From Nocardioides aromaticivorans (GTDB lineage: Bacteria > Actinomycetota > Actinomycetes > Propionibacteriales > Nocardioidaceae): a stretch of DNA of 64,000 nucleotides. This document shows positions 38,234-61,771 of this stretch, piece by piece. The position numbers were made by a program, and so were the translations under genes. The stretch is taken from NCBI RefSeq assembly GCF_013408525.1, contig NZ_JACBZM010000001.1, positions 992,001 to 1,056,000 on the forward strand, given 5' to 3'. Below the pieces are notes generated by a model, which was not told the origin of the DNA, searched no databases, and saw nothing but the letters and a program-made list of their open reading frames with translations. How positions within the stretch are numbered: the first letter of the stretch is position 1; each line of letters opens with the position of its first letter.

Positions 38234-39433
38234 ATGCGCGTGGCCGTGGTCGGCCTCGGTACTGCCGGGGCCACCACGGCCTGTCTGCTTTTCGACCAGG
38301 GTCATGACGTCACCGTCGTCGAGCAGGCCGACGACCCGCGGCCGGTCGGCGCGGGCATCTGGCTCCAGGGCCTGGGCCAGCAGGTGCTGGACCGGCTCGA
38401 CCTGCTCGGCCCGATGCGCGAGGCCTCCCGGGTGGTCCGGCGGGTCCGGATGGAGGGCCGCGGCGGGCGCCGCCTCGTCGACATCGGGTACGACGCCCGG
38501 CCGGCCTCGTCGCCGGCGCTGGGGGTCCACCGCGGCGACCTGTTCGGCCTGCTGTTCGGCGCGGTCCGCGAGCGCGGCATCCGCCTCGAGCTCGGGGCGC
38601 GGGTCAGCGCCGTCGAGCCGCGCACCGGCGGGATCGCGCTCACCGTCGACGACCCCGGCGGGCCGGACGCCCGCGACCTCGGCCGCTTCGACCTCGTCAT
38701 CGGCGCCGACGGCAGCCGCTCACGGGTCCGGGCCGCGCTGGGGCTGGCCACCCGCGACCGGGAGTACCGCTACGGCGCGCTGTGGGCGATCGTGCCCGAC
38801 CGGCACGGGCTGACCGGCGACACCCTCTTCCAGCGGATGGACGGCACCCGGCGCTATCTCGGGGTGCTGCCGACGGGGACCGACCGAGCGTCGTTGTTCT
38901 GGTCGGTGCGCACCGCCGACGCCGCCGCCGTGGTCGCCGGCGGACTCGACGGCTGGCGCTCGGAGGCGCGCCCGCTGGCAGGCCCCTACGCGCCGCTGGT
39001 GGACGAGGTGACCGAGCTGCTGCCGGCGTCCTACCGCACGGTGGCCGTGCGGTCGTCGTACCGGGTCGTGGGCGGGGGCCGCAGCGCCGGCGTCCTGGTC
39101 GGCGACGCCGCGCACGCGATGAGCCCCCAGCTCGGCGCCGGCACCTCCCTGGCGCTGGCGGACGCCTGGACGCTCGCGAGGGCCGTCGAGCGGCACGACG
39201 ACCTCACCACCGCGCTGCAGTGGTACGACGACCAGCGCCGCGCCCACGTGCGGTGGTACCGCTGGTGGACCCGCGCGATGACCCCGGCGTTCCAGGGCGA
39301 CCTGACCGCACTGGCGCTCCCCCGCGACCTGCTCGCGCCGGTGGTGGCCCGCACGCCGGGGATGCCGCGCCTGCTGGTGGGCACGCTCACCGGCGACCGG
39401 CGCTCGCTCCTCCGGACGTGGGACCTGCCGTAG
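38234..39433 (+). CDS. FAD-dependent monooxygenase / NAD(P)-binding oxidoreductase
   Basis: Product of 399 residues of the p-hydroxybenzoate hydroxylase-like class. N-terminal dinucleotide fold VVGLGTAGATTACLL with VVEQADD; second motif DLVIGADGSRSRVR near residue 155; third FAD motif GVLVGDAAHAMSPQLGAGTSLALADAWTLA near residue 285. No membrane segment. Substrate unknown. It lies 23 bp after gltA and may be cotranscribed. Its last 47 bases overlap the end of the converging ATP-grasp gene. Confidence 0.88.
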   Translation: MRVAVVGLGTAGATTACLLFDQGHDVTVVEQADDPRPVGAGIWLQGLGQQVLDRLDLLGPMREASRVVRRVRMEGRGGRRLVDIGYDARPASSPALGVHRGDLFGLLFGAVRERGIRLELGARVSAVEPRTGGIALTVDDPGGPDARDLGRFDLVIGADGSRSRVRAALGLATRDREYRYGALWAIVPDRHGLTGDTLFQRMDGTRRYLGVLPTGTDRASLFWSVRTADAAAVVAGGLDGWRSEARPLAGPYAPLVDEVTELLPASYRTVAVRSSYRVVGGGRSAGVLVGDAAHAMSPQLGAGTSLALADAWTLARAVERHDDLTTALQWYDDQRRAHVRWYRWWTRAMTPAFQGDLTALALPRDLLAPVVARTPGMPRLLVGTLTGDRRSLLRTWDLP

Positions 39434-40481
39434 CGCCCCGCTTCCGTGCCCGCCACCGCAGCCGCTCCTCCTGGAAGCGCGCCCAGTGCTCGAAGCGCCG
39501 ACCGGCCAGCAGGTCGGCGGTGAGCCGCACCTCGGCCTCGTGGTAGAGCCGGCCGAGCAGGGCGTCGTACTCCGGCTTCCAGAGGTCGGAACGGCTGGGC
39601 ACCGAGCTGAACTCGCAGAAGACCAGCTCGTCGGGCGCGTTGTGGAAGTCGATCCGCATGAACGGCACCGGGAGCTCGAGGCTGAGCGCCCGCGCCTGGG
39701 CCAGCTTGGCCGGGCACAGGCCGCCACGGTCGAGTGTGGTGTCCGCCGGGTCGGCGAAGGCGGGCAGCGGCTTGTGCCCGGGCACCACCGGCTGGAGGTC
39801 GGCGGTGAAGTAGGCGTACTCGACCCTCGGGAAGCGACGGATCTCCACGAGCAGCGCGACGTCGCCGTAGAAGCAGTAGGCCTTCACGTCGCGGGCCGGG
39901 AGGCCGTCGGCGCCGAGGACCAGCTCCTGAACCCGCCAGCGGTGCTCCTTGGGCGGTCCGCCCAGCTGGCGCGCGGCGACGGCCCTGATGTCGGCGATCG
40001 AGCCGAGCCGCTCCGTGGTCGCGACGCTGACCACCTCGCCGTCGCCCAGCACGAAGAAGACGCCCGCGGACTCGTTCGCCCGCAGCGGCTTGAGCACCGT
40101 GCCGGGCCGCAGGTGCGCCAGGGACTGGGTGAAGCCGCCCGCGAAGAGCACCTCGGCCACCGGCACGCCCGCCGCGGTGGCGAGCTCCCGGTCCCACGAC
40201 TTGTCGACGCCGAGGAACTGCTCGGGCAGGACGCCCAGCTGCTTCTTCCGGCGGCGCGAGACGATGCTGCGCCAGAACGAGTCGGCCGGGACGAGCTCGC
40301 CGCGCCGGGCCAGGTGGGACATCGCCGGCTGGGTGAGGTCCTCCGGGGCGGCGGCGGACAGCGCGCTCAGGTAGACGTCGGGGTCGCCCTCGGCGAGCTG
40401 GTCGAGCAGCGCGCGGACCTCGGCGGAGGCGGCGCCGCGGGCGTCGAGCGCGCGGTCGAGCTCGTGGTGGGGGCTGGGCAT
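39387..40481 (-). CDS. TupA-like ATP-grasp protein
   Basis: Product of 364 residues from ATG 40481 (MPSPHHELDRAL). The central and C-terminal parts show an ATP-grasp layout: TVLKPLRANESAGVFFV (ATP-binding Lys region), RWRVQELVLG, a Lys-containing VKAYCFYGDVALLVEI, and the metal-site run MRIDFHNAPDELVFCEFSSVPSRSD. This matches the TupA-like group near teichuronopeptide synthesis enzymes, which form amide bonds to amino acids on polymers; that activity here is inferred. Downstream of an M1 peptidase and a Pls-type synthetase. The 3' end overlaps the converging monooxygenase gene. Confidence 0.75.
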   Translation of the reverse strand: MPSPHHELDRALDARGAASAEVRALLDQLAEGDPDVYLSALSAAAPEDLTQPAMSHLARRGELVPADSFWRSIVSRRRKKQLGVLPEQFLGVDKSWDRELATAAGVPVAEVLFAGGFTQSLAHLRPGTVLKPLRANESAGVFFVLGDGEVVSVATTERLGSIADIRAVAARQLGGPPKEHRWRVQELVLGADGLPARDVKAYCFYGDVALLVEIRRFPRVEYAYFTADLQPVVPGHKPLPAFADPADTTLDRGGLCPAKLAQARALSLELPVPFMRIDFHNAPDELVFCEFSSVPSRSDLWKPEYDALLGRLYHEAEVRLTADLLAGRRFEHWARFQEERLRWRARKRGATAGPTSGGASAGRR

Positions 40482-40499
40482 GCGGAGACCTCGGGACGT

Positions 40500-40519
40500 G
40501 CTGGGGGAGCGGCCCCAGC
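40500..40519 (-). terminator. Hairpin between the M1 peptidase and ATP-grasp genes
   Basis: GCTGGGG (40500-40506) and CCCCAGC (40513-40519) form a 7-bp stem with a six-base loop, 43 bp past the M1 peptidase stop and 19 bp before the ATP-grasp ATG. It could attenuate transcription between the two genes or hold the leader of the second. Confidence 0.5.
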
Positions 40520-40561
40520 CTCGCAGTGTCGGCCGACCGCCACCCGAGGTTCGCGGATTCT

Positions 40562-41860
40562 TTACCCGGGGAAGGGCGGCAGCGCCTCGTCGTACAGCCA
40601 CGGGGCCAGCATGGACGCGACGTCGGTGCCCGTCCGCTCCCCCGCGAACGCGAGGAAGTCGTCGGTGGTGACATTGCTGCCGTCGTACGCCTCGACCCAG
40701 CCGGAGAGCAGGTCGAAGAAGGCGTCGTCGCCGACGGCGACCCGCAGCGCGTGGAGGGCGAGCGCGCCGCGCTTGTAGACGCGGTCGTCGAACATCAGCT
40801 CCGGGCCCGGGTCGGCGAGGACGAGGTCCTGGCCGGCCTCCGCGAGCCGCTCGTGGTGGTGGCGCGCCCAGCCGTCGCAGCTGCGCGGGCCGCCGGACTC
40901 CTCCGACCACAGCCACTCGCTGTAGCAGGCGAAGCCCTCGTGCAGCCAGATGTCCTGCCAGCGGCGCAGCGTCACGGCGTTGCCGAACCACTGGTGCGCC
41001 ATCTCGTGCGCGACCAGCCGCACGTGCGACCACTCCGCCGTGCAGAAGTTGCGGCCGAAGGTGGACAGGCTCTGGCTCTCGAGCGGGATCTCGAGGTCGT
41101 CGTCGGTGATGACGGCGGCGTACTTCTCGAACGGGTAGGTCCCGAAGACCCGCTCGAAGTACTCCAGCATCGCGCCCTGCTGGTCGAAGGAGCCCGCGAG
41201 GTCGGCGTCGGACGGTGCGATCGTGGTGACCGTCGGGCCGTGGGTCGTGGAGGCGTAGCGGCCGATCTGCACGGTGGCGAGGTAGGACGCCATCGGGCGG
41301 TCCATGACATAGGTCCACTCCTCGACGCTCGCGCGGCGGCGGTGCTCGACCAGCTCGCCGTTGGAGACCACGACGTAGCCCGCGGGGGCGCCCAGGGAGA
41401 TCCGGTAGGTGGCCTTGTCGTCGGGCCGGTCGTTGCAGGGGAACCAGGTCGGCGCGCCGTGCGGCTGGGCCGCGACGATCACGCCGTCGGCGAGCTCCTC
41501 CCAGCCGGCGTCGCCGTGGTGGCGGTCGATGACCGGCTTGGGTACGCCGCCGTACGCGATGGTCAGCCGCAGCTCCGCGCCGGACGGCACCGGGCGGTCG
41601 AGCTGCAGGACCAGCCGCTCGGAGCGTGCGCTCCACTTGCGCAGCCGGGCGCCGTCGACGCGGACCTTGGTGGCCCGCAGGTGCGCGAGGTCGAGCACCA
41701 GCCGGGCGGTCTCCTCGAGCGTCACCACGTCGAGGGTGGCCGTCCCGGAGAGGCGGTTGCCCTCGAGCGCGTAGACGAGGTCGAGGTCGTAGTGCCGGAC
41801 GGAGTACGACGGGTCGCCGTGGCCCGGCAGGTAGGGGTCAGCGGTCGGCAGGTGCGGCAT
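40562..41860 (-). CDS. M1-family zinc metallopeptidase
   Basis: Product of 432 residues. Zinc motif HEMAH (H285-H289) followed after 18 residues by E308 in WLHEGFACYSEWLW, the HExxH-18-E pattern of M1 aminopeptidases; the usual GAMEN exopeptidase loop is represented by the divergent LESQSLSTFG. Upstream is the M1 beta-domain (residues 20-200). No signal peptide. It lacks the long C-terminal domain of PepN. Its stop lies 80 bp before the ATP-grasp ATG and its start 9 bp after the Pls-like gene. Epsilon-poly-lysine-degrading Pld enzymes are M1 peptidases, which makes the linkage notable. Confidence 0.9.
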   Translation of the reverse strand: MPHLPTADPYLPGHGDPSYSVRHYDLDLVYALEGNRLSGTATLDVVTLEETARLVLDLAHLRATKVRVDGARLRKWSARSERLVLQLDRPVPSGAELRLTIAYGGVPKPVIDRHHGDAGWEELADGVIVAAQPHGAPTWFPCNDRPDDKATYRISLGAPAGYVVVSNGELVEHRRRASVEEWTYVMDRPMASYLATVQIGRYASTTHGPTVTTIAPSDADLAGSFDQQGAMLEYFERVFGTYPFEKYAAVITDDDLEIPLESQSLSTFGRNFCTAEWSHVRLVAHEMAHQWFGNAVTLRRWQDIWLHEGFACYSEWLWSEESGGPRSCDGWARHHHERLAEAGQDLVLADPGPELMFDDRVYKRGALALHALRVAVGDDAFFDLLSGWVEAYDGSNVTTDDFLAFAGERTGTDVASMLAPWLYDEALPPFPG

Positions 41861-41869
41861 CGTCGCGCG

Positions 41870-44800
41870 CTACTCGGCCCACGGGCCGATCGGGTTGCCG
41901 ATCCACCGCGTCTTGTCCGGCACCGTCTCGCCCCTCATCACCAGTGACACCGGCCCGACGGTAGCGTGCTTGCCCAGCGTGGCGGCAGGCAGCACCACGG
42001 AGTTCGGCCCGAGCGTCGCCCCGCGACGCAGCCGCACGGCGTCGGTCGCGAGCAGCCGGTCGTGGAAGAGGTGGGTCTGCACGACGCTGCCCTGGTTGAC
42101 GGTCGCGCCGTCGCCGAGCTCGACGAGGTCGGCCTCGGGCAGCCAGTACGACTCGCACCACACGCCGCGACCGACCCGTGCGCCCATCGCCTTGAACCAC
42201 AGCGTGATCAGGGGCGAGCCCGTCGCGAGTCCGGCGAACCACGGCGTGGCGAGCACCTCGATGAAGGTGTCGGCCAGCTCGTTGCGCCACACGAACGAGC
42301 TCCACAGCGGGTGCGAGCCGGCGCGCACCTTGCCGACGAGGAGCCACTTGGCGGCGATCGCGACCAGCGCGGCCACGGCGCCGGCCGCCCACAGCAGGAG
42401 GGGTACGGCGACCAGGCCGGCCACGGCGCCGTACTCGCTCCACGCCGCGAGGGTCCCCGCCACCACGGCGACGTGGAGCCCGACGGCCAGGGCCAGCGGG
42501 ATGACACGGGCCAGCTCCCAGCAGGCACGGGCGACCTTGAGCCGGCGCGGCGGCGCGTAGGTGCGCTCGTCGGCGGAGCCCTGCTCGGCGCGGCGCAGCG
42601 GTGCGGGCGGACTGCCCAGCCACGACTCGCCGGCCTTGACGGTGCCGCGCGCGGGCGCGGCGGACAGCACGGCCACCAGCGAGCGCTTCGGCACCTTGCG
42701 GCCCGGCGCGGCCATCGCGGAGTTGCCGACGAACGCGCGCTTGCCGACCTTGACCCGCTCGGCGCGCAGCCAGCCGCCACCGAGCTCGTAGCCGCCGATG
42801 AGGGTGTCGTCGGCGAGGAAGGCCTGGTCGCTGACCGTCGTGAGGGACGGGATCATCAGCACCGTCGACGCCTCGACGTCGCGGCCGATCCGGGCGCCCA
42901 GCAGGCGCAGCCAGGTCGGGGTGAGCTGGGAGCTGTAGAGCGGGAACAGCCAGGTCCGGGCCTCGTCGAGCACCCGGATCGTCGACCACACGCACAGCGC
43001 GGGCCGGCTCTGCAGCGGGTGGGCGCCGGCCTTGACGCCCCGGCCCAGCAGGCGCACGACGGCGAGGACGAGGACGGCGAGGGTCACCGCGCCGAGCACC
43101 ACGCCGGGGACCAGCCACGGCAGCACCGCCCGCACGGCGTCGCCTACGCCGTCGGTCCCGCCGAGGTCGGCGAGCAGCAGCGCGGGCACCAGCGCGGCGG
43201 CGATCGCGAGGGCCGGGAGCAGCGCGAGCCCGGCCGCGGCGGCGGCGTACGAGACGGCCCAGAGGCGGAGCGTGCGCCTCGTCGCGGCCGGGCGTTCGGC
43301 CCACGGGCCGCGGGCGGCCGAGCTGGCGCGGGTCGCGGGGGCGCCGGACCAGAACTCGCCGGCCGGCACCTCGCCGAACACGGCGGACCCGGGCGCGACC
43401 TCGGCGTCGTCGCCCACGACCGCGTCCGGGCCGAGCATCGAGCGGGTGCCGACGCGGGCGCGCGGACCGACCCGGATCCCGCCGACGTGCAGCGTGTCCC
43501 CGTCGATCCAGTAGCCGGTGAGGTCGACCTCGGGCTCGATCGACGCGCCCTTGCCGACCGTGAGCAGCCCGGTCACCGGCGGCAGCGAGTGGAGGTCGGC
43601 GCCCCGGGCGACCTTCGCGCCCAGCAGGCGGGCGTACCAGGTCATGTACGGCGCCCCGGCGAGCCGCGTCGCGCCGAGCTCGTCGGCGATCCGCTCGGCC
43701 ATCCAGATGCGCAGGTGCACCTTCCCGCCACGGGGGTACTCCCCCGGCCGGACGCCGGCCCGCACCGCCTGCACCAGCTTGGCCGCCAGCAGCATCCGGC
43801 CGGGAGGGGTCACGAAGACCACCAGCAGCAGGGCCAGCAGCCACCACGGCACGGCCGGCAGCCAGTCGACGTCGAGCAGGTCGTGGACGACCCGGGAGAA
43901 GGCGAGCGTGCCGGCGAGCCAGCGCGGCGCGGCCAGCGCCCGCAGCAGCGGGACCGCGACCACCTGTCCGAGCTGGGTCTTGCGCGGGATCGGCAGCACC
44001 TTGCGGCTCTGCTCGGCGAGCGCGGTCGGCTCGAGCGCGTCGAGGAAGCGGGCGAGGCCGTCGACGGTCGGGTGCTCGTAGAGGTCCGCGACCGTCAGGT
44101 CGGGGTGGTCGGCGCGGAGCAGGGTGACGACCTGCGCGGCCGTCAGGCTCCCGCCGCCGAGGTCGAAGAAGTCGGCGTCCGGGCCCTCCGGGACGGCACC
44201 GACCACCTTCTGCCAGACCTCCGCGATGACGGCGGCGGTGCCGTGCAGGCCGAAGTCGGCGGGATCGGCCGTCGGCAGCGGCCACGGGAGGGCGTCGCGG
44301 TCGACCTTGCCGGAGGTGCGGGTCGGGATGTCGTCGACGACCGCGAGCCGCGGGACGAGCGCGGCGGGCATGGTCGCCCGCAGGTGGGCGGTCGCCGCGG
44401 CGCCGTCGTACGCGGGGGTGGTGGCGAGGTAGCCGACGAGGAGCTGGTTGCCGGTCGTCGTACGACGCACGGCGGCGGCCGCCGCGGTGACACCCGGCAG
44501 GGACAGCAGGGCCGAGTCGATCTCGCCGAGCTCGATCCGGCGCCCGCCGAGCTTGACCTGGTCGTCGGCGCGCCCCGCGAAGAGCAGCCCCGCGGCGTCG
44601 TTGACGACGATGTCGCCGCTCCGGTAGGCGCGGTCCCAGCCGAGCGTCGGCATCGGGGCGTACTTCTCGGCGTCCTTGGCCGGGTCGAGGTAGCGGGCGA
44701 GCCCGACGCCGCCGATGATCAGCTCGCCCCGCTCACCCTCCCCCACGGGCTCGCCCGTCGCCGGGTCGACGACCACGAGGTCCCAGCCGGCGAGCGGCAG

Positions 44801-45736
44801 GCCGATCCGGACCGGGCCCTGCGCGGTGACCAGCGCGCCGCACGCGACGACCGTCGCCTCGGTCGGGCCGTAGGTGTTCCAGACCTCGCGCCCCTCACGG
44901 ACCAGGCGGACGGCGAGCTCGGGCGGCAGCGCCTCGCCGCCGAGGATGACCATCCGCACCCTCTCGAGCGCGTCGTCGGGCCAGAGACTGACGAGGGTCG
45001 GGACGGTCGAGACGATGGTGATGTCGTTGGCGGTCAGCCACGGGCCCACGTCGACCCCGCTGCGGACGAGGGCGCGCGGGGCGGGGACCAGGCAGGCGCC
45101 GTACCGCCAGGCCAGCCACATCTCCTCGCAGCTCGCGTCGAAGGCGACGCTGAGGCCCGCCATCACCCGGTCGCCCGGGCCGATCGGGGCGTCCTGCAGG
45201 AACATCAGCGACTCGGCGTCGACGAAGGCCGCGGCGCTGCGGTGGGTGACGGCGACCCCCTTCGGCGTGCCCGTCGAGCCCGACGTGAAGATCACCCACG
45301 CGTCGTCGTCGACCGTCGGGTCCTGCCGCTGGCGGGGCGCGGCGTCGCGGCGGGGCTCGATGACCAGTCCGGTCCCGACCAGCGCGGCCACGGCGGCCTC
45401 GCCGAAGACGAGCCGGGCGCGCTCCTCGGGGTCGTCGGCGTCGACCGGGACGTACGCCGCGCCCGCGAACAGGATGCCCATGATCGCGACGTAGAGGTCC
45501 GTCGTGCCGGACGGGAGCCGGACGCCGACCTTGTCGCCCGGGCCGATGCCGAGCTCGGCGAGGTCGGCCGCGACCGCCTCGGCCGCCTCCGCGAACTCCT
45601 CGTAGGTCACGGTGTCGTTGCCGCTGTCGAGGGCCATCGCGTCGGGGTGCTCCGCCGCCGTACGACGGAACACGTCGACGAGGGTGCGGGGGGCGGGTGC
45701 CTCGTCGCCGCGCAGCAGGGGGGACGGGGCGTTCAC
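41870..45736 (-). CDS. Pls/PosA-type single-module peptide synthetase (A - T - membrane - hexapeptide)
   Basis: Product of about 1289 residues. The adenylation domain (1-490) has TSGSTGTPKG (151-160), AFDASCEEMW, NTYGPTE, YRSGD and K477 in TSGKVDRD. The carrier domain has DFFDLGGGSL with S530. After it come about six hydrophobic segments in three pairs and left-handed beta-helix hexapeptide repeats, the layout and length of the epsilon-poly-L-lysine synthetase Pls. By hand alignment the pocket residues read D200, A201, E204, S243, I264, G266, T288, V296, V297, K477, close to a lysine code. The GTG 45736 start lies inside an inverted repeat with GGAGAG directly adjacent, so the exact start is uncertain. 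Confidence 0.88.
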   Translation of the reverse strand: MNAPSPLLRGDEAPAPRTLVDVFRRTAAEHPDAMALDSGNDTVTYEEFAEAAEAVAADLAELGIGPGDKVGVRLPSGTTDLYVAIMGILFAGAAYVPVDADDPEERARLVFGEAAVAALVGTGLVIEPRRDAAPRQRQDPTVDDDAWVIFTSGSTGTPKGVAVTHRSAAAFVDAESLMFLQDAPIGPGDRVMAGLSVAFDASCEEMWLAWRYGACLVPAPRALVRSGVDVGPWLTANDITIVSTVPTLVSLWPDDALERVRMVILGGEALPPELAVRLVREGREVWNTYGPTEATVVACGALVTAQGPVRIGLPLAGWDLVVVDPATGEPVGEGERGELIIGGVGLARYLDPAKDAEKYAPMPTLGWDRAYRSGDIVVNDAAGLLFAGRADDQVKLGGRRIELGEIDSALLSLPGVTAAAAAVRRTTTGNQLLVGYLATTPAYDGAAATAHLRATMPAALVPRLAVVDDIPTRTSGKVDRDALPWPLPTADPADFGLHGTAAVIAEVWQKVVGAVPEGPDADFFDLGGGSLTAAQVVTLLRADHPDLTVADLYEHPTVDGLARFLDALEPTALAEQSRKVLPIPRKTQLGQVVAVPLLRALAAPRWLAGTLAFSRVVHDLLDVDWLPAVPWWLLALLLVVFVTPPGRMLLAAKLVQAVRAGVRPGEYPRGGKVHLRIWMAERIADELGATRLAGAPYMTWYARLLGAKVARGADLHSLPPVTGLLTVGKGASIEPEVDLTGYWIDGDTLHVGGIRVGPRARVGTRSMLGPDAVVGDDAEVAPGSAVFGEVPAGEFWSGAPATRASSAARGPWAERPAATRRTLRLWAVSYAAAAAGLALLPALAIAAALVPALLLADLGGTDGVGDAVRAVLPWLVPGVVLGAVTLAVLVLAVVRLLGRGVKAGAHPLQSRPALCVWSTIRVLDEARTWLFPLYSSQLTPTWLRLLGARIGRDVEASTVLMIPSLTTVSDQAFLADDTLIGGYELGGGWLRAERVKVGKRAFVGNSAMAAPGRKVPKRSLVAVLSAAPARGTVKAGESWLGSPPAPLRRAEQGSADERTYAPPRRLKVARACWELARVIPLALAVGLHVAVVAGTLAAWSEYGAVAGLVAVPLLLWAAGAVAALVAIAAKWLLVGKVRAGSHPLWSSFVWRNELADTFIEVLATPWFAGLATGSPLITLWFKAMGARVGRGVWCESYWLPEADLVELGDGATVNQGSVVQTHLFHDRLLATDAVRLRRGATLGPNSVVLPAATLGKHATVGPVSLVMRGETVPDKTRWIGNPIGPWAE

Positions 45737-45764: not shown

Positions 45765-45792
45765 GGTGGGTGGCGCGCCCGCGGTCGCTTCG

Positions 45793-45821: not shown

Positions 45822-45828
45822 CTGCGGG

Positions 45829-47454
<1,626 letters not shown>

Positions 47455-50358: not shown

Positions 50359-52947
50359 ATGGCGCCCCGGAGCCATCGATCCCTGCGGCGCTTGGCCCGC
50401 CCCGCCCGCGCCGCCGTCCGCAGGCTCCGGCAGCGGCGGGCCGCACCCCCCACCCCGGCCGAGGAGCAGCGCGCGGCCTGGCTGGCCGAGAGCGCGGCGC
50501 ACGTCGAGGCCCGTCGCTTCGAGGACGCCGAGCGGGTGCTCGACAAGGCCCTCGCCTCCGAGCCCGACGAGATCACGCTGCTCGCCGCGCGGGCCCGACT
50601 CGAGGGCCGGCGCGGCGACTGGGCCGCAGCCCGCGACCGCTGGGCCGAGCTGGTCGCCACCCGCGCCGACGACCTCAACGCGCCGGGCTGGGTCAGCGCC
50701 GTGCACAGCCACCGACGCGCCCGCGACATCGACGCGGCCGAGGCGATCGCGACCCAGGCGCTCGAGCGCTACGCCCACCGCCGGATCGTGCTCTGGGAGA
50801 CCGCCCACGTCGCGATGGCGCGCGCCGACTGGGACCAGGCCGTCGTGCGCTGGGTGCGCTACTGGCGATCGGCCGCCCGCGACGACCCCGACCCGCGCCC
50901 GCTCCCCCGCCGCGCCTCGCAGGCCGACTGGTTCGAGGCCGCGTGGCACGAGGTCGTCAACCACCTCGACTCCGCCGACGCCCTGCTCGACCGGCCCGCG
51001 GGGCCCCTCTTCCACCGCGCCCTCGCCCGCGTGCTCGGCAAGTCGAGCATGGACGACGACCGGATCCGGGTCCTCGAGCGCGCGGCGCGGCTCTACCCCG
51101 ACGACGCCCCCGTGGCCTACGAGCTGGCCGCCGCCCGTCTGGAGTCCGGTACGACGCCGGGCGCCCTGCCGATCGGCGCGGACGAGGTCGCCGAGGTGCG
51201 CGGAGCGCTGCCGTCGTACACGGCGACGGGGACGGGCCTGGGCCCGGTCCGGCTGGTCCGGGTGCCACGGCACTCCTCGCTCGAGCTGGCGCTGCGGTCC
51301 GGCCACTACATCGACCGTCCGGCGGTCGGCCGGCTGGTGCAGGAGATCAGCGAGCGCGACCGCTGGCCCGAGCCGCTGAGCCCGACCAACATCCTGCTGG
51401 CGCAGGCACGGGCGTGGGCGGACGAGTTCGGCGCGCGGTTCGCGTCCCCGCCGCACCTGCCGGCCGAGACCCTGTCCGACGCGGTGATGGTGAACGTCTA
51501 CCACGAGTCGGCGCTGTTCGTGCCGATGCAGCGCCTCGCCGCCGAGCTGGCCGCGCGGGCCGCCGGCGAGCCGGTCCTGATCGAGGTCCTCGGCACCGAG
51601 CTCGGCTACCTCGAGGGCTACGCGTCCGGCGACTTCGACCTGGTCTTCCTCTACTTCGCGCTCCTCGAGCGGGGCGCCAACGCCTTCCTCGTGCGGATCG
51701 AGAACGAGTCGGTCGGCCGGGCGACGGAGACGGTGCGCTTCGTCCCGAAGTGGCGCTCGGTGATGGCCGCGCTCGACGTGGTCGAGGATCCGGCGCCGCA
51801 CACGCGAGCGGTGGTCCCCGCGGGCATCCGCCGCGTCGTGCCGCTCGTCGAGGAGCTCGACGACGTCGTCGTCTACCAGTCCGGCTCGGTCGTCAAGGAG
51901 TTCGCCTACGACCGCTCGATCGAGCAGCAGTACCCGATCCACGCCACCGCCCGCCTCCACCCGGAGGAGAGCGTCCTGCAGACCTTCGAGTACCCGCTCA
52001 CCCGGGTCGCCCGGCTCACCGGTCGCGCCCTCGGCGCCGAGGGCGGCAGGGCGAGGGGGTCGGTCGAGGTCGGCGAGCCGCTGGGCGGCACCTGGCAGGA
52101 GTGGTTGCACCGCGCGACGTCACCGCTCCTGGAGCACCTCGCCCGCACCGCCGCGGCCGACATCGAGCGGCGCGGTGTCACCGAGGCGCACATCGGCGAC
52201 CACCTGTACGCCGAGAGCGTGATCGTCGGCGACACGGTCCGCCGTGCGGGCGGCCGGGTCATCGTGTGGCCGCACTCGACCAACCCGGTCCACGTCGACC
52301 TGCGCCGCGCCGACTCCTTCGACGAGGTGCACGCGGTGACGCACAGCGGCGCCGAGGCCTGGCGCCGGGCGTTCCCCGACAAGGTCGTGCACCACTCGGC
52401 CGACTCGATGCTGTCGCCGTCCCCGCCGCGGCCGTTCGAGCCCGGCAAGCCGGTCTCGCTGGTGATCTTCGGCGGTCGCTCGACACTCGGCAACATGCCG
52501 ACCCTCGACACCGCCGCCCACCGCGAGCTCTACATCCGGCTCTTCGACGAGCTGGCCGCCCTGCGCGAGCACCACCCGGTCGACGTCTACTTCAAGCCCC
52601 GAGGCCTCACCGGCGAGCACGAGCACTGGCTCTTCCAGACGGTCGGCAAGACGGCCGGCTGGAAGCCGATCTACCAGCACTCGCTGCGCCTCGAGCTGCC
52701 CAACATGGTCTTCGCGTCGGTCTCGATGGGCACCTCCGCACTCATCGAGGGCCTCACCCGCGGCGTCCCGGGCTTCGTGGTCCGCGAGTTCCCCGTGCGC
52801 GACTACACGACGCTCGACGCCGAGGCGTTCCCGATCGTCCCGGCCGCCGAGGCGATGGAGCTGCTCGCGAAGGCCACCACCGCCGAGGGGTACGACGAGC
52901 TGGTGGCCCGGGAGCTGCACCACATGAAGGACGAGCTCGGGCTCTGA
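50359..52947 (+). CDS. TPR-containing, GT-B-like surface glycan protein
   Basis: Product of 862 residues from ATG 50359, GGAAGG twelve bases upstream. Residues 1-30 are strongly basic; residues about 35-240 are helical pairs of TPR type (EARRFEDAERVLDKALASEPDEITLLAARARLE). The C-terminal half looks like a two-domain GT-B fold: a first domain with YGYLEGY-type and YHESALF segments, then GRVIVWPHSTNPVHVDLRRADSF and a closing SMGTSALIEGLTRGVPGFVVREFPVRDYTTLDAE (split here for reading), the usual donor-site pattern. I infer a glycosyl- or polyol-phosphate transferase of the nonulosonic acid region. The exact family is not recognised. Confidence 0.65.
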   Translation: MAPRSHRSLRRLARPARAAVRRLRQRRAAPPTPAEEQRAAWLAESAAHVEARRFEDAERVLDKALASEPDEITLLAARARLEGRRGDWAAARDRWAELVATRADDLNAPGWVSAVHSHRRARDIDAAEAIATQALERYAHRRIVLWETAHVAMARADWDQAVVRWVRYWRSAARDDPDPRPLPRRASQADWFEAAWHEVVNHLDSADALLDRPAGPLFHRALARVLGKSSMDDDRIRVLERAARLYPDDAPVAYELAAARLESGTTPGALPIGADEVAEVRGALPSYTATGTGLGPVRLVRVPRHSSLELALRSGHYIDRPAVGRLVQEISERDRWPEPLSPTNILLAQARAWADEFGARFASPPHLPAETLSDAVMVNVYHESALFVPMQRLAAELAARAAGEPVLIEVLGTELGYLEGYASGDFDLVFLYFALLERGANAFLVRIENESVGRATETVRFVPKWRSVMAALDVVEDPAPHTRAVVPAGIRRVVPLVEELDDVVVYQSGSVVKEFAYDRSIEQQYPIHATARLHPEESVLQTFEYPLTRVARLTGRALGAEGGRARGSVEVGEPLGGTWQEWLHRATSPLLEHLARTAAADIERRGVTEAHIGDHLYAESVIVGDTVRRAGGRVIVWPHSTNPVHVDLRRADSFDEVHAVTHSGAEAWRRAFPDKVVHHSADSMLSPSPPRPFEPGKPVSLVIFGGRSTLGNMPTLDTAAHRELYIRLFDELAALREHHPVDVYFKPRGLTGEHEHWLFQTVGKTAGWKPIYQHSLRLELPNMVFASVSMGTSALIEGLTRGVPGFVVREFPVRDYTTLDAEAFPIVPAAEAMELLAKATTAEGYDELVARELHHMKDELGL

Positions 52948-55170: not shown

Positions 55171-56223
55171 TCAGTCCGCGAGCAGGTCCCAGGTCAGCGG
55201 CGTACCGCGCGGGGCCGCCTCGCGGACGCGGCGGCCCAGGACCTCGTCCCAGTGCTTCGGCGGCAGGCCGGAGCCCGGGCGGATGCTGCGGAGGTTCTGC
55301 TCGGTCAGCACCTCGCCGGCGGCGACGTCCTCGACGAGGTAGAGCGAGCGGCGACGGCCGCGGGCGCCCTCCTCGGCCTCGGTCGGCTGGTAGCGGACCT
55401 CGCCGAGGGCGACCCGCGCGGCCGCCGTCTCCGTGACGAGCTGCGCGAACTCCGGCGGCTCGAGCGAGAACGGGCTGTCGACGGCGCCGTCGTTGCGGTC
55501 GAGCGTGATGTGCTTCTCGAGGACGACGGCACCCAGCGCGACGGCCGCGACGGCGACGCCCACGCCGAGGCTGTGGTCGGACAGCCCGACCTCGCAGCCG
55601 AAGCGCTCGCGCAGGTCGGGGATCGTCAGCAGGTGCGAGTCCTCGGGCCGGGCGGGGTAGCTGGTGGTGCACTTGAGCAGCACCAGGTCCTCGCAGCCGC
55701 CCTCCCGGGCCGCCGCGACGGCGTCCTCGATCTCCTCCAGCGTGGCCATGCCGGTGGAGATGATGAGCGGCTTGCCGGTGGCCGCGGTGTAGCGGATGAG
55801 CGGGATGTCGATGATCTCCGACGACGCGATCTTGAAGCAGGGCACGTCGAGCCCGAGCAGGAAGTCGACGGCGGTGCGGTCGAAGGGCGAGCTGAAGCAG
55901 AGCATCCCGTGCTCGCGGGCGCGGGCCATGATCGGCTCGTGCCACTCCCACGGCGTCATCGCCTCGGAGTAGAGGTCGTGCAGGGTCCGGCCGTACCAGA
56001 GCGAGCCGGGGTTCTGGATCGTGAACTCCTCGCGGTCCACGTCGATCGTCATCGTGTCCGCGGTGTAGGTCTGCAGCTTCACCGCGTGCACGCCGGAGCC
56101 CGCGAGCGAGTCGACGATCGCGAGCGCCCGGTCGAGCGAGCCGTGGTGGTTGCCCGAGATCTCCGCGATCACGAACGGGTCGGCGTCGCGGCCGACCGGG
56201 ATGCCACCGATCTGCATGGCCAC
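55171..56223 (-). CDS. pseI: Pseudaminic acid synthase
   Basis: NeuB-family enzyme that condenses a 2,4-diacetamido-trideoxy-altrose with phosphoenolpyruvate. Product of 350 residues: VIAEISGNHHGSLDRAL, AVKLQTYTADTMTID and YSEAMTPWEWHEPI (the PseI-type wording of these motifs, not the sialic acid type), FKIASSEIID, STGMATLEEI and a C-terminal SAF antifreeze-like domain (residues about 295-350). GTG 56223 or ATG 56217 may start it, four bp after the methyltransferase-like gene. Last gene of the pse operon. Confidence 0.92.
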   Translation of the reverse strand: MAMQIGGIPVGRDADPFVIAEISGNHHGSLDRALAIVDSLAGSGVHAVKLQTYTADTMTIDVDREEFTIQNPGSLWYGRTLHDLYSEAMTPWEWHEPIMARAREHGMLCFSSPFDRTAVDFLLGLDVPCFKIASSEIIDIPLIRYTAATGKPLIISTGMATLEEIEDAVAAAREGGCEDLVLLKCTTSYPARPEDSHLLTIPDLRERFGCEVGLSDHSLGVGVAVAAVALGAVVLEKHITLDRNDGAVDSPFSLEPPEFAQLVTETAAARVALGEVRYQPTEAEEGARGRRRSLYLVEDVAAGEVLTEQNLRSIRPGSGLPPKHWDEVLGRRVREAAPRGTPLTWDLLAD

Positions 56224-56227
56224 GCCC

Positions 56228-57265
56228 TCAGGCCCGCCGGAGCACGACGAGCTCGCCGGCCGACTGGATCAGCGGCTCGCCGTACCGGCCGGCGACCTCG
56301 AAGCCGTGCCGGGCGAACGCGTCGACGATGAACTGCGAGGTGACCGGCTCGATCGCGCCACCGGCCCGGCCGGCCTCGGCGCGCCGCTTGCCGGCACGCG
56401 AGTTCAGCGAGACGGCGTAACGCACGCCGCGCGCGGCGACCAGGTCGACGTAATTGCTCACCACGTCGGGCTCCATCTCCTGGAAGGAGAAGGAGTTCAC
56501 GAACACCTCGTAGTCGCTGCGCAGGTCGGGCAGCCGCCAGCTCGGGATGGTGCCGTGGGCGGGCACCTCGAACCCGCCGTCCGGCAGGTCGGCGGGCGTG
56601 AGGACCGGCCGGTCGAGGATCTGGGTGAGGTACCACGCGGTGATCACGACCAGCGGCGGGATGTCGGCGTCGACGTACCGGGCGTCCGGGTCGCGCTGGG
56701 TGACGATCTCGCCGAGCACGCCGAAGCCGCCGCCGATCTCCAGGAAGGAGCGCGGTGGCGCGTCGACGTGCTTGCTCAGCGCGGTGAGGCAGAGCAGGTA
56801 GTTGAGGTAGGGGCGGCTCCAGCCGACGTCGGTGCCGGTGAAGCGGAAGCGCTGGGCGTTGCCGAGCTCGTTCTCGCCGTACGACAGCAGGTCGAAGGGC
56901 CAGCGCTCCTGGTCCCAGGCGAGCTGGACGGCGTGGTAGTCGCGGCGGGCCTCGATGCTGCCGCCGAGGATGGAGCGGATCCGGGCCTCGCTGACCGCCG
57001 GGTTGGCGACCTGTGACGCCTCGATCATCTTCTGCATCGCCTTGCCCGGGTACCCGTCGCCGTAACGCGGGTAGAACCAGCTGCGCGAGGACGGCCACGA
57101 CTTGAAGGTCGGCAGGCCGCGCTTGCGGAGGTCGCCGAGCAGCTGCTCGACGCCCGGGCCCCAGAAGTTCGTGGGGGTGTAGAGCGGGTCGCGCTGCTCG
57201 ATGCCGGCGAGGAGGTCGTCGACCATCCCGCTCCAGTCGGTCAGCTCCGTACTCGTGTCGACCAT
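56228..57265 (-). CDS. Putative sugar O-methyltransferase
   Basis: Product of 345 residues. A helical N-terminal part (SWFYPRYGDGYPGKAM, SILGGSIEARRDYH) precedes a Rossmann methyltransferase core with FLEIGGGFGVLGEIV (SAM loop near residue 175), DADIPPLVVITAWYL and NSFSFQEME. This matches the group of putative sugar O-methyltransferases encoded with NeuB/PseI genes. I infer methylation of the nonulosonic acid or the glycan carrying it. ATG 57265 lies within the 3' end of the acyltransferase gene (25-bp overlap). Confidence 0.78.
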   Translation of the reverse strand: MVDTSTELTDWSGMVDDLLAGIEQRDPLYTPTNFWGPGVEQLLGDLRKRGLPTFKSWPSSRSWFYPRYGDGYPGKAMQKMIEASQVANPAVSEARIRSILGGSIEARRDYHAVQLAWDQERWPFDLLSYGENELGNAQRFRFTGTDVGWSRPYLNYLLCLTALSKHVDAPPRSFLEIGGGFGVLGEIVTQRDPDARYVDADIPPLVVITAWYLTQILDRPVLTPADLPDGGFEVPAHGTIPSWRLPDLRSDYEVFVNSFSFQEMEPDVVSNYVDLVAARGVRYAVSLNSRAGKRRAEAGRAGGAIEPVTSQFIVDAFARHGFEVAGRYGEPLIQSAGELVVLRRA

Positions 57266-58344
57266 CGCGCACTGTCCTTCAGCTTGAGGAACTTGGATTC
57301 GATCAGGTGGTAGGAGAGGGTCGCCACCGCGACGGAGAGCAGCACCTCGACGACGACGCGGGTCCAGACCTGCGAGGTCTCGGCGCCCGGCAGCTGCTGC
57401 TTGACGACGTAGTAGACGGTGTAGTGCCACAGGTAGAGGCCGTAGGAGATCTTGCCGAGCCCGCGCAGCGGCGCCCAGGTGAGCACGGCGTGCACCCAGC
57501 GCGGCCCCTTCCCGTCGCGTACGACGACCAGGATCGCGACCGCGGAGGCGAGCGTGGTCGCGGGCACCATCAGCCCGTAGACCCACACGCCCTTGTCCTG
57601 CCCGCACAGCGAGACCAGCACGGCGAGCGAGGCGGCGAAGGCCAGCCCGCCGAGGAAGCGCCAGCCGCGCCAGGCGACGACGACGGCGAGCAGGCAGCCG
57701 ACGAGCAGCGAGAACGACACGACGAGGGGGTCGTTGTGCAGCCGCTGGAGGCTGGCGCCGGTGTCGATCAGCCAGTAGCGGTAGGCGAGCGACAGCCCGA
57801 TCATCGCGACCAGCGCGAGCGCCAGTCCGCGCCGGCTGAGGCGCAGCACGCTGAGCAGCCCGATCAGCAGGGCCGGCCAGACGAGGTAGAACTGCTCCTC
57901 CATGGCCAGCGACCAGGTGTGCGGCGTGAGGGTGACGTACTCGCCGAGGGTGCGCACGATGTTGGTGACGTAGAGGCCCGCCCAGAGCACCTGCTCCAGC
58001 CGCTCGTCGTACCGGATCGCGACGACGGCCGTGACGATGACGTAGAGCACCATCGCCGGCATCAGCCGCAGCGCGCGGCGGATGTAGAAGCGTGAGAGCG
58101 AGATGTCGTCGCGGGTGTCCCACTCCTCCAGCAGCAGCCGGGTGATCAGGAAGCCGGACAGCACGAAGAAGACCGTGACGCCCACGGTGCCGGCGGTGCC
58201 GCTGTGGGGCAGCGCGGTGTGGTTGAAGAGGACCATCGCCACCGCGATGGCGCGCAGGCCGTCGAGCGCCGGGCGCTGGCCGAGGCGGTAGCCGTCGGCG
58301 GTGACCGCGGCCGGACGGGTGGCGGTGGCGGTCTGCTCAGCCAT
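57241..58344 (-). CDS. OafA/YrhL-type membrane acyltransferase
   Basis: Product of 367 residues of acyltransferase family 3 with about ten helices: RPALDGLRAIAVAMVLFNH (catalytic-type His42 region), VFFVLSGFLITRLLLEEW and a TWSLAMEEQFYLVWP loop near residue 145. Such enzymes O-acetylate surface sugars using cytoplasmic acyl-CoA. It lacks the C-terminal SGNH domain of larger relatives. Overlaps the upstream epimerase gene by 8 bp; likely decorates the pseudaminic-type sugar. Confidence 0.9.
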   Translation of the reverse strand: MAEQTATATRPAAVTADGYRLGQRPALDGLRAIAVAMVLFNHTALPHSGTAGTVGVTVFFVLSGFLITRLLLEEWDTRDDISLSRFYIRRALRLMPAMVLYVIVTAVVAIRYDERLEQVLWAGLYVTNIVRTLGEYVTLTPHTWSLAMEEQFYLVWPALLIGLLSVLRLSRRGLALALVAMIGLSLAYRYWLIDTGASLQRLHNDPLVVSFSLLVGCLLAVVVAWRGWRFLGGLAFAASLAVLVSLCGQDKGVWVYGLMVPATTLASAVAILVVVRDGKGPRWVHAVLTWAPLRGLGKISYGLYLWHYTVYYVVKQQLPGAETSQVWTRVVVEVLLSVAVATLSYHLIESKFLKLKDSARWSTRVRS

Positions 58345-59224
58345 GGCCGACCCGCTCCCGCACCATCGCGGAGAGCCCGTACGACGCCGTCCAGCCCAGC
58401 AGGTCGCGGGCGCGCGTCGTGTCGAGGCGGTACTCCGAGGTGTCCTCCCGGTCCACCGGCTCGAAGACGACCGCGTCGTCGCCGAGGCCGCACTGGGCGG
58501 CGACCTCGCGGGCCATCTCGGCGACCGAGAAGCCTCCGGTGCCGATGTTGGCGACCAGCGGGCTGGGCAGGCCGGGGCGGGTGGCGGCGAGCTCGAGCGC
58601 CGTCGCCACGTCGCGCACGTCGACGAAGTCGCGGACCACGGCGCCCTTGCCGGACACCGTCAGCGGACCGCCGGCGAGCCCTTGGGCGGCGAGGCGCGGC
58701 AGCGCGCCGCGGCCCCCGTCACCGGGTCCGACGACCTGCGCGATCCGCAGCGCGACCGTGCCGATGCCCGAGGTGCGGGCGTAGAGCGCGAGGACGTCCT
58801 CGCCCATCCGCTTGCTGAGGCCGTAGAAGGTGTCCGGGCCCTCCGGCTCGTCCTCGCGGATCGGCCCGCGCAGGTGGCCGGGGTAGGCCAGCCGGGAGGA
58901 GGCCAGCACGAAGCGGCCGACACCGGCCGCCACGGCCGCGCGGAGGAGCTCCTCGGTCAGCGCCACGTTCGCCGGGAGGTACGACGCCAGCGGGGTCGCG
59001 AGGCTGTCGACGCTCCGGGCCGCGAGGTGGACCACCGCGTCGGCGCCGGCGAGCAGCTCGGCCGGCGCCGGGGCGGGGCTCGCCGTGAGGGCCGGCTCGT
59101 CGAGCCGGCGGAGCAGGCCGTCCTCACCCCGGCCGAGCGGCACGACGTCGTACCCCTGGGCGCGGAGGTGGGTGACGGCGTGGCCCCCGAGGAAGCCACG
59201 CGCGCCGGTGACGACGATCCTCAA
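58337..59224 (-). CDS. NAD-dependent epimerase/dehydratase (extended SDR)
   Basis: Product of 295 residues from TTG 59224, with GAGGG about seven bases upstream; it begins MRIVVTGARGFLGGHAV as usual for the family, so the longer in-frame form is unlikely. Rossmann motif GARGFLGG at residues 8-15, substrate-site SSRLAYPG and catalytic YGLSK (Tyr and Lys) near residue 140, RDFVDVRDVATALELA near residue 200. It is shorter and different from PseB, so it probably makes or modifies another sugar nucleotide of the locus. Coupled to its neighbours on both sides. Confidence 0.85.
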   Translation of the reverse strand: MRIVVTGARGFLGGHAVTHLRAQGYDVVPLGRGEDGLLRRLDEPALTASPAPAPAELLAGADAVVHLAARSVDSLATPLASYLPANVALTEELLRAAVAAGVGRFVLASSRLAYPGHLRGPIREDEPEGPDTFYGLSKRMGEDVLALYARTSGIGTVALRIAQVVGPGDGGRGALPRLAAQGLAGGPLTVSGKGAVVRDFVDVRDVATALELAATRPGLPSPLVANIGTGGFSVAEMAREVAAQCGLGDDAVVFEPVDREDTSEYRLDTTRARDLLGWTASYGLSAMVRERVGHG

Positions 59225-59234
59225 GCGCGGGCCC

Positions 59235-60359
59235 TCAATCGTTGTCGCGCGTGATCGCGTAGCCGAGCCGCGCGACCGTGCCGTTGACGTCGCGGGCGAG
59301 CTCACCCGGCTCGGTGTGGAACTCCTCGAAGACCACCTCGCCGAGGTCGGCGAAGCTGTGGTCGGCCGGCTCGAAGGGGATCTTCGGGTCGGTCAGGTGG
59401 AAGCGCAGCGTGTGGTGCACGCCGGTCGGCAGCTCGGGGTCGCCGGGCCACTCGCCACCGGACAGCACGTCGAAGACGGTCATCATCAGGTCGAAGCCGG
59501 TGTGCACCTCGATCAGGCGCCACAGGTGGCAGCCGTCGAGGCGCGGCGCGACCTCCACGATCCGGGGACCGTCGCTGGTGAGGATCATCTGGAAGTACAG
59601 CGGTCCGTTGGTCACGCCGAGGGCGGCCACGAAGGCGTCGATGAGGCCCTTGACCTGGGCGGAGGTGACGTCGTCGAGCTCACGCGAGGGCATCGTGTGG
59701 CTGCTGGGGATCCCGGTCAGCGGCCCCTCCCAGACGTGCCGGTCGGAGGCGAGCAGCAGGTGGGCGACGCCGTCGACGACGAAGACGTGGACGGAGAACT
59801 CGGGGCCCTCGAGCAGCTGCTCGATGACCGCCGCGCCGTTGCGCGACGACGCGAGCGCGGCGGGCAGGGCGGCGACGGCCTCGTCGTGGTCCTGGACGAT
59901 GGTGATGCCGCGCTGGCCCTGGTTGTCGACCGGCTTGACGATCGCCGGGTAGGCGACGAAGCCGGTGAGGTCGGCGGCGGTGCGCACGACCTGGTGCGGC
60001 ACCGGGCTGAGGCCGTTCTTGGTGAGGAAGCCCCGCAGGAGGTCCTTGCGGTGGAGCGTCTCGGTGACGGCCGGCGAGTGGAACAGCGGCAGGCCGAGCT
60101 GCTCGCTGACCGCGGCGACGGTCGGCATCGCGATGTCGGAGCCGACGGAGTAGACGACGTCGACGGCCAGCTCCTTCGCGAGCGCGGCGACACCGGCGGG
60201 GTCGAGGATGTCGACGACGAAGAACTCGTCGGCGGCCGCGACGCCGGCGCCCTCGCGGACGTGTCCGCACGCGTAGACCCGCCACCCGGCAGCGCGGAGC
60301 CGGTGCATGGCGTCCGCCTGTCCCGGCAGCGCTCCGAGAATGAGCGCGGAGCGCGGCAT
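59235..60359 (-). CDS. ATP-grasp enzyme of the nonulosonic acid locus
   Basis: Product of 374 residues from ATG 60359, GAGGGAG four bases upstream; ATG 60386 (nine codons earlier, overlapping the pseG stop as ATGA) is a good alternative. Pre-ATP-grasp fold with LILGALPGQADAMHRLRAAG, DILDPAGVAALAKELAVDVVYSVGSD, then the ATP-grasp core AIVKPVDNQGQRGI, AVIEQLLEGPEFSV and metal site RIVEVAPRLDGCHL. It resembles carbamoyl-phosphate/BtrJ/PylC-like ligases. In a sugar locus it may attach an amino acid or other acid to an amino sugar; that is inference. Confidence 0.82.
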   Translation of the reverse strand: MPRSALILGALPGQADAMHRLRAAGWRVYACGHVREGAGVAAADEFFVVDILDPAGVAALAKELAVDVVYSVGSDIAMPTVAAVSEQLGLPLFHSPAVTETLHRKDLLRGFLTKNGLSPVPHQVVRTAADLTGFVAYPAIVKPVDNQGQRGITIVQDHDEAVAALPAALASSRNGAAVIEQLLEGPEFSVHVFVVDGVAHLLLASDRHVWEGPLTGIPSSHTMPSRELDDVTSAQVKGLIDAFVAALGVTNGPLYFQMILTSDGPRIVEVAPRLDGCHLWRLIEVHTGFDLMMTVFDVLSGGEWPGDPELPTGVHHTLRFHLTDPKIPFEPADHSFADLGEVVFEEFHTEPGELARDVNGTVARLGYAITRDND

Positions 60360-60382: not shown

Positions 60383-61771
60383 TCATCGCCCGCCCTGTCC
60401 CGGAACGAGCGCTGCGAGCCGTGTCGGCTCTCCTTCGCTGCACGGCCACACTAACCGATCGAGGACGTCGTCCATGATCCCGGCGGCACGTTTGTCGAGT
60501 ATATCGATATGGTTTATCGAGTCCACATCGGGGCCGTCCCGGGTGACCCGGAGACAGGCCGAGGGCACGCCGTCGACCTCGACCACGACCACCACCACGT
60601 CCGGAACGACGAGATCCGACGCGAATCGGTTCCCTGCTGCGACCCACCCCGCCGGGTCGTCGCCGCGCGCGACGGCGACCGGCGCGTCCTCCGGCCCCGC
60701 GAGTCGGAGCCGCAGCCCGTCGTCGGGACCGGTCGGACGCGTGGGGAGCACGGCGTGGGCGACCCGCGCGGCGCCGTACCCGTCGACGAGCGGGGGCGGG
60801 AGGGGCAGTGCACCCTCCGCGGCCCGGTCGAGCAGGGCGCGGTAGCCGTCGACGCCGACCTCGCCGACGAGACCTGCCCAGGTCGTCAGGCCCGCCTCCG
60901 CGAGCGCCCGGGTCACGCCGGACTGGTGCGGTGCGGTCGTCGTGACGATCGCCGGCACCTGCAGGCAGATCCGCTCCCAGGTCGCGGTGCCGCTCGCCCC
61001 GATGGCGAGGTCGGCGCGCTGCAGGCTCGGCGCCAGCGAGCGCAGCGCGACGTGCAGCTCCGCCCCCGGTACGTCGGCCACCAGGTCCTCGAGGCCGGGC
61101 GCGAGCGCCGCGCGCGAGCCCACGACCACCTCGACCCGCTCGAACGCCGGGCGGCCGCGCAGCGCCTCCAGGACGGTCCGGGTCTCCCCCGCCGGGTCGG
61201 TGCCGCCGAAGGACACCAGCAGGCGTCGCGGCGGCACGGCGGCCGGGGACGACTCCTTCCGGAGCTCGGCGTAGGCCGGGTGCAGCAGGGCGTAGCGCGG
61301 ACCGAGCAGCAGCTCGCAGCCGTCGGGCACGGTGCCGTCGTAGCGGCCGGCGCTGCCGGCGCCGTACCAGTTGTGGTCGACGAGCAGGTCCACCTCGCGA
61401 CGCCGCCCGGCGAGGTCGTCGACCGCGACGACCCGGTCCGCGATGCGGCGTACCTCCGCCTCCCAGACGTGGTCGAGGCCGTAGTGGTCGACGACGACCA
61501 CGTCGACCGCTCCCCCGGCGCGCTCGATGGTCGCCCGGGCGTCGGCGAGCTGGGCGGCGACCGGCCACGGGCGTCCGGTGGCGTCGGCCTGCTCGGGCAC
61601 GGTGAGGTTGCGGTGCCCGGCCGCCGTGATCCTCGGGTCGTCGCCGGTGGTCACCACGACGACCTCGGCGCCGCGGGCGGCCAACAGGTCGGCGAGCGCG
61701 AGCTGGCGGACCAGGTGGCCGCTGCCGATGCGGGGGCCGGCATCGGCACGGACCAGGACGACCGGTGCCAC
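60383..61771 (-). CDS. pseG: PseG-like UDP-sugar hydrolase with extra C-terminal domain
   Basis: Product of 462 residues from GTG 61771, five bases past the pseF stop. Residues 1-345 match PseG, which removes UDP from the altrose precursor: RADAGPRIGSGHLVRQLALAD with the catalytic-type His, VVDHYGLD, VDLLVDHN, VSFGGTDPAGET and IGASGTATWE. PseG is normally about 330-360 residues; here about 110 residues follow, with LRLRLAGPEDAPVA and VEVDGVPSACLRV that look like part of a GNAT fold. Codons near 60475-60520 (NHIDIL) are unusually AT-rich, including ATA. The stop is next to the ATP-grasp start. Confidence 0.85.
   Translation of the reverse strand: MAPVVLVRADAGPRIGSGHLVRQLALADLLAARGAEVVVVTTGDDPRITAAGHRNLTVPEQADATGRPWPVAAQLADARATIERAGGAVDVVVVDHYGLDHVWEAEVRRIADRVVAVDDLAGRRREVDLLVDHNWYGAGSAGRYDGTVPDGCELLLGPRYALLHPAYAELRKESSPAAVPPRRLLVSFGGTDPAGETRTVLEALRGRPAFERVEVVVGSRAALAPGLEDLVADVPGAELHVALRSLAPSLQRADLAIGASGTATWERICLQVPAIVTTTAPHQSGVTRALAEAGLTTWAGLVGEVGVDGYRALLDRAAEGALPLPPPLVDGYGAARVAHAVLPTRPTGPDDGLRLRLAGPEDAPVAVARGDDPAGWVAAGNRFASDLVVPDVVVVVVEVDGVPSACLRVTRDGPDVDSINHIDILDKRAAGIMDDVLDRLVWPCSEGEPTRLAALVPGQGGR

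Follow-up and report, generated by a model that had tools for sequence, protein, structure and literature searches.

A lysine-type pls-pldII gene pair next to a TupA-like ATP-grasp gene probably displaced from a pseudaminic acid module in Nocardioides aromaticivorans

A stretch of 64,000 nucleotides from the genome of Nocardioides aromaticivorans (the window hereafter; C1:992001-1056000 of 5.26 Mb) carries three minus-strand genes in succession, which encode a Pls-type synthetase, an M1 metallopeptidase and a TupA-like ATP-grasp protein. These genes most probably belong to two neighbouring units, an ordinary pls-pldII operon and an ATP-grasp gene displaced from a pseudaminic acid (surface glycan) module. 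The open reading frame list and the confirmed coordinates agree with the three adjacent same-strand genes described in a first-pass annotation of the DNA, with a GTG start at 45736 for the synthetase and ATG starts at 41860 and 40481 for the peptidase and the ATP-grasp protein, respectively. Between pls and the M1 gene there are 9 bp, and a further 80 bp separate the M1 gene from that of the ATP-grasp protein.

The genus Nocardioides thereby gains a well-supported epsilon-poly-lysine locus, identified by a direct match of the substrate pocket and not by mere resemblance. The lead of a third, ATP-grasp component of such a system is removed, and the enzyme moves to a pseudaminic acid module together with a tetratricopeptide repeat (TPR) glycosyltransferase that resembles O-GlcNAc transferase.

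The synthetase and its peptidase partner

The pls gene (41870..45736, minus strand) encodes a protein of 1288 residues counted from the GTG start, the frame of which has Pfam matches to the AMP-binding, PP-binding and hexapeptide families. The adenylation (A) domain (PF00501; 44693..45670, minus strand) spans residues 58-383 of the 1323-residue frame and holds nine of the ten pocket residues. It is followed by a carrier (T) domain (44042..44230, minus strand), which matches PF00550 with 49 bits (cut-off 20.8) and has the LGGGS motif at residue 526. The membrane terminal domain (41888..43966, minus strand), the polymerising region with its hexapeptide-repeat-like segments, is covered by the full length of the Pls/PosA terminal domain model TIGR02353 (3-695 of 695) with a score of 660.1 bits (cut-off 423.1). 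A simple hydropathy scan finds five hydrophobic stretches in this domain, the longer of which are probably helix pairs. The protein has the composition that identifies the Pls family, namely the A and T domains and a membrane terminal domain built of three tandem segments, and the Pfam and TIGR02353 matches bear out the full-length Pls/PosA-like architecture that had been proposed for it.

The best match of the synthetase among solved structures is the A domain of Streptomyces albulus Pls (7wew_A, E 6.4e-185), with 63% identity over 481 columns. The pocket is formed by D200, A201, E204, S243, I264, G266, T288, V296, V297 and K477, the last of which lies beyond the PF00501 match, and the resulting code D-A-E-S-I-G-T-V-V-K is equal to that of 7wew at 10 of 10 positions. 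The same code had been read by hand in the first-pass annotation and was right at all ten positions. It was set there beside the bacitracin lysine code, given as DAESIGSVCK, with agreement at eight of ten positions; the alignment with S. albulus Pls makes the lysine reading stronger than was proposed there. The ten residues recur in all 18 relatives whose pockets were read, in a table that excludes loci L042 and L058. According to a passage of PMC10522769, the second pocket position in the Pls family is Ala in lysine enzymes, Met in ornithine enzymes and Phe in diaminopropionic acid (Dap) or diaminobutyric acid (Dab) enzymes. Judged by its sequence, the product of 41870-45736 is a lysine-type Pls. 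It would adenylate L-lysine and load it on the carrier domain, and the membrane domain would then join the lysines by side-chain (isopeptide) bonds into epsilon-poly-L-lysine.

The M1 metallopeptidase gene (40562..41860, minus strand; 432 residues) occupies the pldII position 9 bp downstream of pls, an arrangement kept in relatives and characteristic of a Pls operon with a peptidase. Its frame matches M1 structures across nearly the entire length, and the zinc motif reads HEMAH-X18-E (40937..41008, minus strand). A synthetase above the cut-off was found in 23 of 58 genomes of the host's order, and an M1 gene lies directly downstream of Pls in 22 of the 23 family loci, the window's own included. 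The exception (L020, left out of the listing of Pls matches above 400 bits and examined as L042, in G052) has a synthetase that is 30% identical, with Phe at the second pocket position. Class-wide, the family was matched in 105 of 394 genomes, from which 30 loci were examined: an M1 gene lies within 1.5 kb of the synthetase in 25 of the 26 loci that are of lysine type by their pocket motifs, and in none of the 4 loci that were classed as divergent without reading the pocket. The divergent Pls/PosA-family synthetases that lack a nearby M1 gene are those of L042, L096, L097, L113 and L114. In the loci examined the M1 partner accompanies lysine-type and not divergent synthetases, and its presence could serve as a cheap marker of the lysine type.

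A chance placement of an unrelated M1 gene was considered and rejected on the conservation of the gene next to Pls. In Streptomyces and Corynebacterium, pls shares an operon with a peptidase gene and PldII degrades epsilon-poly-lysine, as stated in excerpts of PMC8117764 and PMC9223678. By its gene order, the window's pair is of this known pls-pldII operon type and would be co-transcribed, and the position and M1 type of the peptidase suggest a PldII counterpart. The peptidase would hydrolyse the polymer and so protect the producer. The idea of a producer gene with a degrading, self-protecting partner, put forward in the first-pass annotation, is therefore right, supported by position and conservation, and already in print as pls-pldII.

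The window's pair agrees with the pls-pldII systems of S. albulus and Corynebacterium variabile in domain order, in all ten pocket residues and in having an M1-type peptidase gene directly downstream. The comparison with S. albulus is one between a known producer and a product predicted here from sequence, and the peptidase of 432 residues compares with a pldII frame of 1404 nt, about 467 residues, given in an excerpt of PMC9223678. The delta-poly-L-ornithine synthetase PosA has the three-part architecture and the family model in common with the window's Pls. However, in the portion of PMC10522769 that describes it, the PosA pocket is D-M-E-H-N-G-T-V-S-K and PosA forms a single-gene operon, whereas the window's Pls has an M1 partner. 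Among five genomes compared for M1 genes, each with parts of the two modules, a close homologue (47-100%) is present in the three that have pls arranged as in the window (G000, the window's own; G033; and Brevibacterium G608). Of the other two, in which the search detected no pls, G112 has a homologue of 34% only and Demequina G609 has none.

On the other side of pls, a divergent acyl-CoA ligase gene (window 45829-47454) adjoins the synthetase gene. Its homologues, of 87-94% identity, adjoin pls in the five syntenic relatives compared.

Distribution and context of the ATP-grasp gene

The ATP-grasp gene (39387..40481, minus strand) encodes a protein of 364 residues that matches the TupA-like amidoligase family PF14305 (65.1 bits, cut-off 25), and structure prediction gives it an ATP-grasp fold. 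The PF14305 match confirms the TupA-like ATP-grasp label that the gene had received. Comparison of its sequence with solved structures returned no match at E <=1. The window's ATP-grasp protein shares PF14305, the ATP-grasp fold and a glycan context with the TupA-like amidoligases represented by the C-terminal domain of Cj1438 and by Bacillus halodurans TupA. According to an excerpt of PMC11800379, the TupA-like ATP-grasp domain Cj1438C amidates glucuronic acid at its C6 carboxylate. B. halodurans TupA is linked to a polyglutamate/polyglucuronate wall polymer. The window's enzyme differs in being a stand-alone protein with pseudaminic acid neighbours. By analogy with the Cj1438 domain, its site of amide formation would be a sugar acid of the surface glycan.

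A full-length copy of this ATP-grasp gene occurs in 2 of 215 genomes of the genus, the window's own and that of Nocardioides sp. Root190, and eight others contain weak partial matches only. Of 21 pls-family loci compared, 19 lack the gene; the set is made up of the window's locus and those of 20 of the 22 other matching genomes, excluding G043 and G051, whose shorter loci are part of the order-wide count, and one of the two G020 copies. The neighbourhood comparison thus upheld the Pls-M1 pair and not the gene trio. A scan of genome contigs with the ATP-grasp sequence yielded 24 loci, of which one (Root190, L069) also has Pls and M1. Homologues of a TPR-glycosyltransferase and of the pseudaminic acid synthase PseI accompany the gene in three of the 24, namely in Root190, Brevibacterium yomogidense (L070) and Demequina aurantiaca (L071), and one further locus (L086) has a weak NeuB match of 27%. 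In a tree with 7 of the 21 remoter loci as outgroup, the ATP-grasp proteins of L069, L070 and L071 cluster with that of the window at a support of 100/100, apart from the outgroup.

The order on one strand of L070 is PseF, PseG, an ATP-grasp protein of another subfamily, an epimerase, PseI and the TPR-glycosyltransferase, followed by the TupA-like ATP-grasp protein; the pls and M1 genes of this Brevibacterium are on a different contig. The Demequina gene lies beside those for PseI and the TPR-glycosyltransferase, and a search of that genome found no pls. In Root190 the ATP-grasp gene is beside that of the TPR-glycosyltransferase, and a convergent acyl-CoA ligase gene separates it from pls. The ATP-grasp gene is reassigned to the pseudaminic acid module because its relatives in Brevibacterium and Demequina adjoin PseI and TPR-glycosyltransferase genes with no pls nearby. 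The window's copy would be a displaced member of the module that begins 10 kb away.

Searches of a protein collection with the ATP-grasp and TPR-glycosyltransferase proteins scored only the 8000 candidates that share most words with the query, and 15 ATP-grasp homologues were found among them. The closest proteins (P0001-P0003) are 86-90% identical, one at 90% coming from a Nocardioides metagenome-assembled genome. Two metagenomic ATP-grasp proteins, P0005 and P0010, are encoded on contigs equal in size (15898 and 10414) to those of the TPR-glycosyltransferases P0018/P0026 and P0062, respectively. The equal sizes are an indication, not proof, that the genes share contigs; the same size matching (34144) ties P0063 correctly to the contig of L070.

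Alternative readings of the locus

Several observations weigh against the division into a pls-pldII operon and a displaced glycan gene. The window's ATP-grasp gene follows M1 on the same strand, so that co-transcription has some probability, and in neither of the two Nocardioides carriers is its distance to pls greater than about 7 kb. The identities between the window and Root190 are 49% for the ATP-grasp protein, 87% for Pls, 78% for M1 and 58-60% for the TPR-glycosyltransferase; since the ATP-grasp value falls well below those of Pls and M1, a single shared insertion followed by vertical descent alone may not account for the two genes. The divergence points either to fast evolution of the gene, in line with the low TPR-glycosyltransferase values, or to separate arrivals in the same neighbourhood. 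The genome G112, similar to N. limicola, has pseudaminic acid genes and two TPR-glycosyltransferases but no TupA-like ATP-grasp protein, and the contexts compared do not include those of P0001-P0003, the ATP-grasp proteins closest to that of the window. On the side of the peptidase, locus L115 has a lysine-type Pls with no M1 gene within 1.5 kb, and the PldII assignment draws on position and M1 type.

The most direct competitor is a true three-gene system, newly recruited in this clade, in which the ATP-grasp enzyme caps epsilon-poly-lysine or couples the polymer or lysine to another molecule; the first-pass annotation had suggested a new third component that caps or attaches the polymer. The short distance between the ATP-grasp start and the M1 stop and the proximity to pls of both full-length genes of the genus speak for it, as does a scan of 39000-46200 that found no promoter-like site but does not cover typical actinobacterial promoters. 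A terminator scan of the same region found one terminator-like site, within the ATP-grasp gene, where 0.5 are expected by chance, and the folding of RNA from the gap between M1 and ATP-grasp (z -0.22) gave no signal of unusual structure. However, nearly all pls-family loci compared lack the gene, the Root190 copy stands beyond the convergent acyl-CoA ligase gene and thus outside the pls operon, and the nearest named relatives outside Nocardioides are in pseudaminic-acid-type clusters with no pls nearby. The three-component system was rejected as the principal explanation on these absences and on the pseudaminic acid context elsewhere, and we regard it as quite unlikely. A connection between the two units is also conceivable, in which the ATP-grasp enzyme would join epsilon-poly-lysine or lysine to a carboxyl group of the surface glycan that contains pseudaminic acid. 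The result would be a cationic isopeptide polymer anchored to the cell, which M1 would trim. In that case the proximity of the ATP-grasp gene to pls in the two Nocardioides genomes that carry it would have a functional cause and not be accidental; such a link seems highly improbable.

With respect to the synthetase, members of the Pls/PosA family yield several polymers, as an excerpt of PMC10522769 states, and the membrane domain could change the product, so that another cationic homopolymer (of ornithine, Dab or Dap) or a branched polymer was considered. Nonetheless, the identity of the whole pocket with that of S. albulus Pls and the restriction of the M1 partner, in the loci compared here, to lysine-type synthetases make such a product very unlikely; ornithine, Dab and Dap were rejected on the pocket residues. 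The pair may instead be silent or otherwise employed, its closeness to the glycan module marking only a variable chromosomal site. The pls gene is above the cut-off in 13 of 37 genus genomes (the window's own included), genes inside the conserved flanks vary between genomes, and the pls of C. variabile is intact yet silent in culture according to an excerpt of PMC8117764. However, the intact frames and motifs in the window and the wide conservation of the pair speak against this reading, which we consider unlikely. An operon of pls-pldII type beside a probably displaced ATP-grasp gene is retained as the most likely reading.

The pseudaminic acid module

An ABC (ATP-binding cassette) transporter at 47.6-50.2 kb lies between pls and the pseudaminic acid genes, as does a flotillin-like gene. 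The plus-strand gene at 50392..52947 encodes a protein of 851 residues with TPR matches in Pfam and a predicted GT-B fold in residues 468-851, a candidate pseudaminyltransferase by virtue of relatives that lie beside PseI. The remaining genes are all on the minus strand. They encode the pseudaminic acid synthase PseI (55171..56223; TIGR03586, 472.5 bits, cut-off 340.25), a putative NanM-like sugar O-methyltransferase (56228..57265; TIGR04371, 136.7 bits, cut-off 44), a membrane acyltransferase of the Acyl_transf_3 family (57241..58344; PF01757, 113.3 bits, cut-off 31) and an NAD-dependent sugar epimerase/dehydratase (58337..59224; PF01370, 133.7 bits, cut-off 20.9). These are followed by a second ATP-grasp ligase of an unrelated subfamily (59235..60308; PF01071, 43.5 bits, and PF13535, 40.4 bits, cut-offs 27; NCBIfam matches below cut-off), a PseG-like UDP-sugar hydrolase (60383..61771; TIGR03590, 213.9 bits, cut-off 153.55) and the pseudaminic acid cytidylyltransferase PseF (61777..62499; TIGR03584, 287 bits, cut-off 205.7). 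In comparison with the Pse pathway, the NCBIfam equivalog models of PseI, PseF and PseG score above their cut-offs, PseB, PseC and PseH were not identified in the annotated part of the cluster, and the cluster has in addition the TPR-glycosyltransferase of an unnamed family.

No tRNA genes, which could mark an insertion, were found in the window, and of its 4 short tandem repeat arrays none is at the borders of the genes discussed here. A PHROGs search with the TupA-like ATP-grasp and TPR proteins gave no matches.

In the window, L069, L070, L071, L131 and L132, genes of pseudaminic acid type have as neighbours the genes for proteins of 850-890 residues with TPR and GT-B-like parts. Their predicted architecture is like that of O-GlcNAc transferase and SPINDLY (pLDDT, the confidence score of the model, 89.5; the whole-chain TM, or template modelling, score is low). 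Pfam and NCBIfam gave them no name other than TPR, and they may form an unnamed family of pseudaminyltransferases. Of 215 genomes of the genus, 3 encode the TPR-glycosyltransferase, those of the window, Root190 and G112, with two copies per cluster in Root190 (L069/L094) and G112 (L131/L132) and one in the window. The G112 genome has Pse genes, and neither pls nor the TupA-like ATP-grasp gene was found in it; each of the two modules thus also occurs alone. Flagellin was found in G000 and G033, and the search was negative for G112, Brevibacterium G608 and Demequina G609; since these five genomes differ in this respect, the pseudaminic acid module is not tied to flagella.

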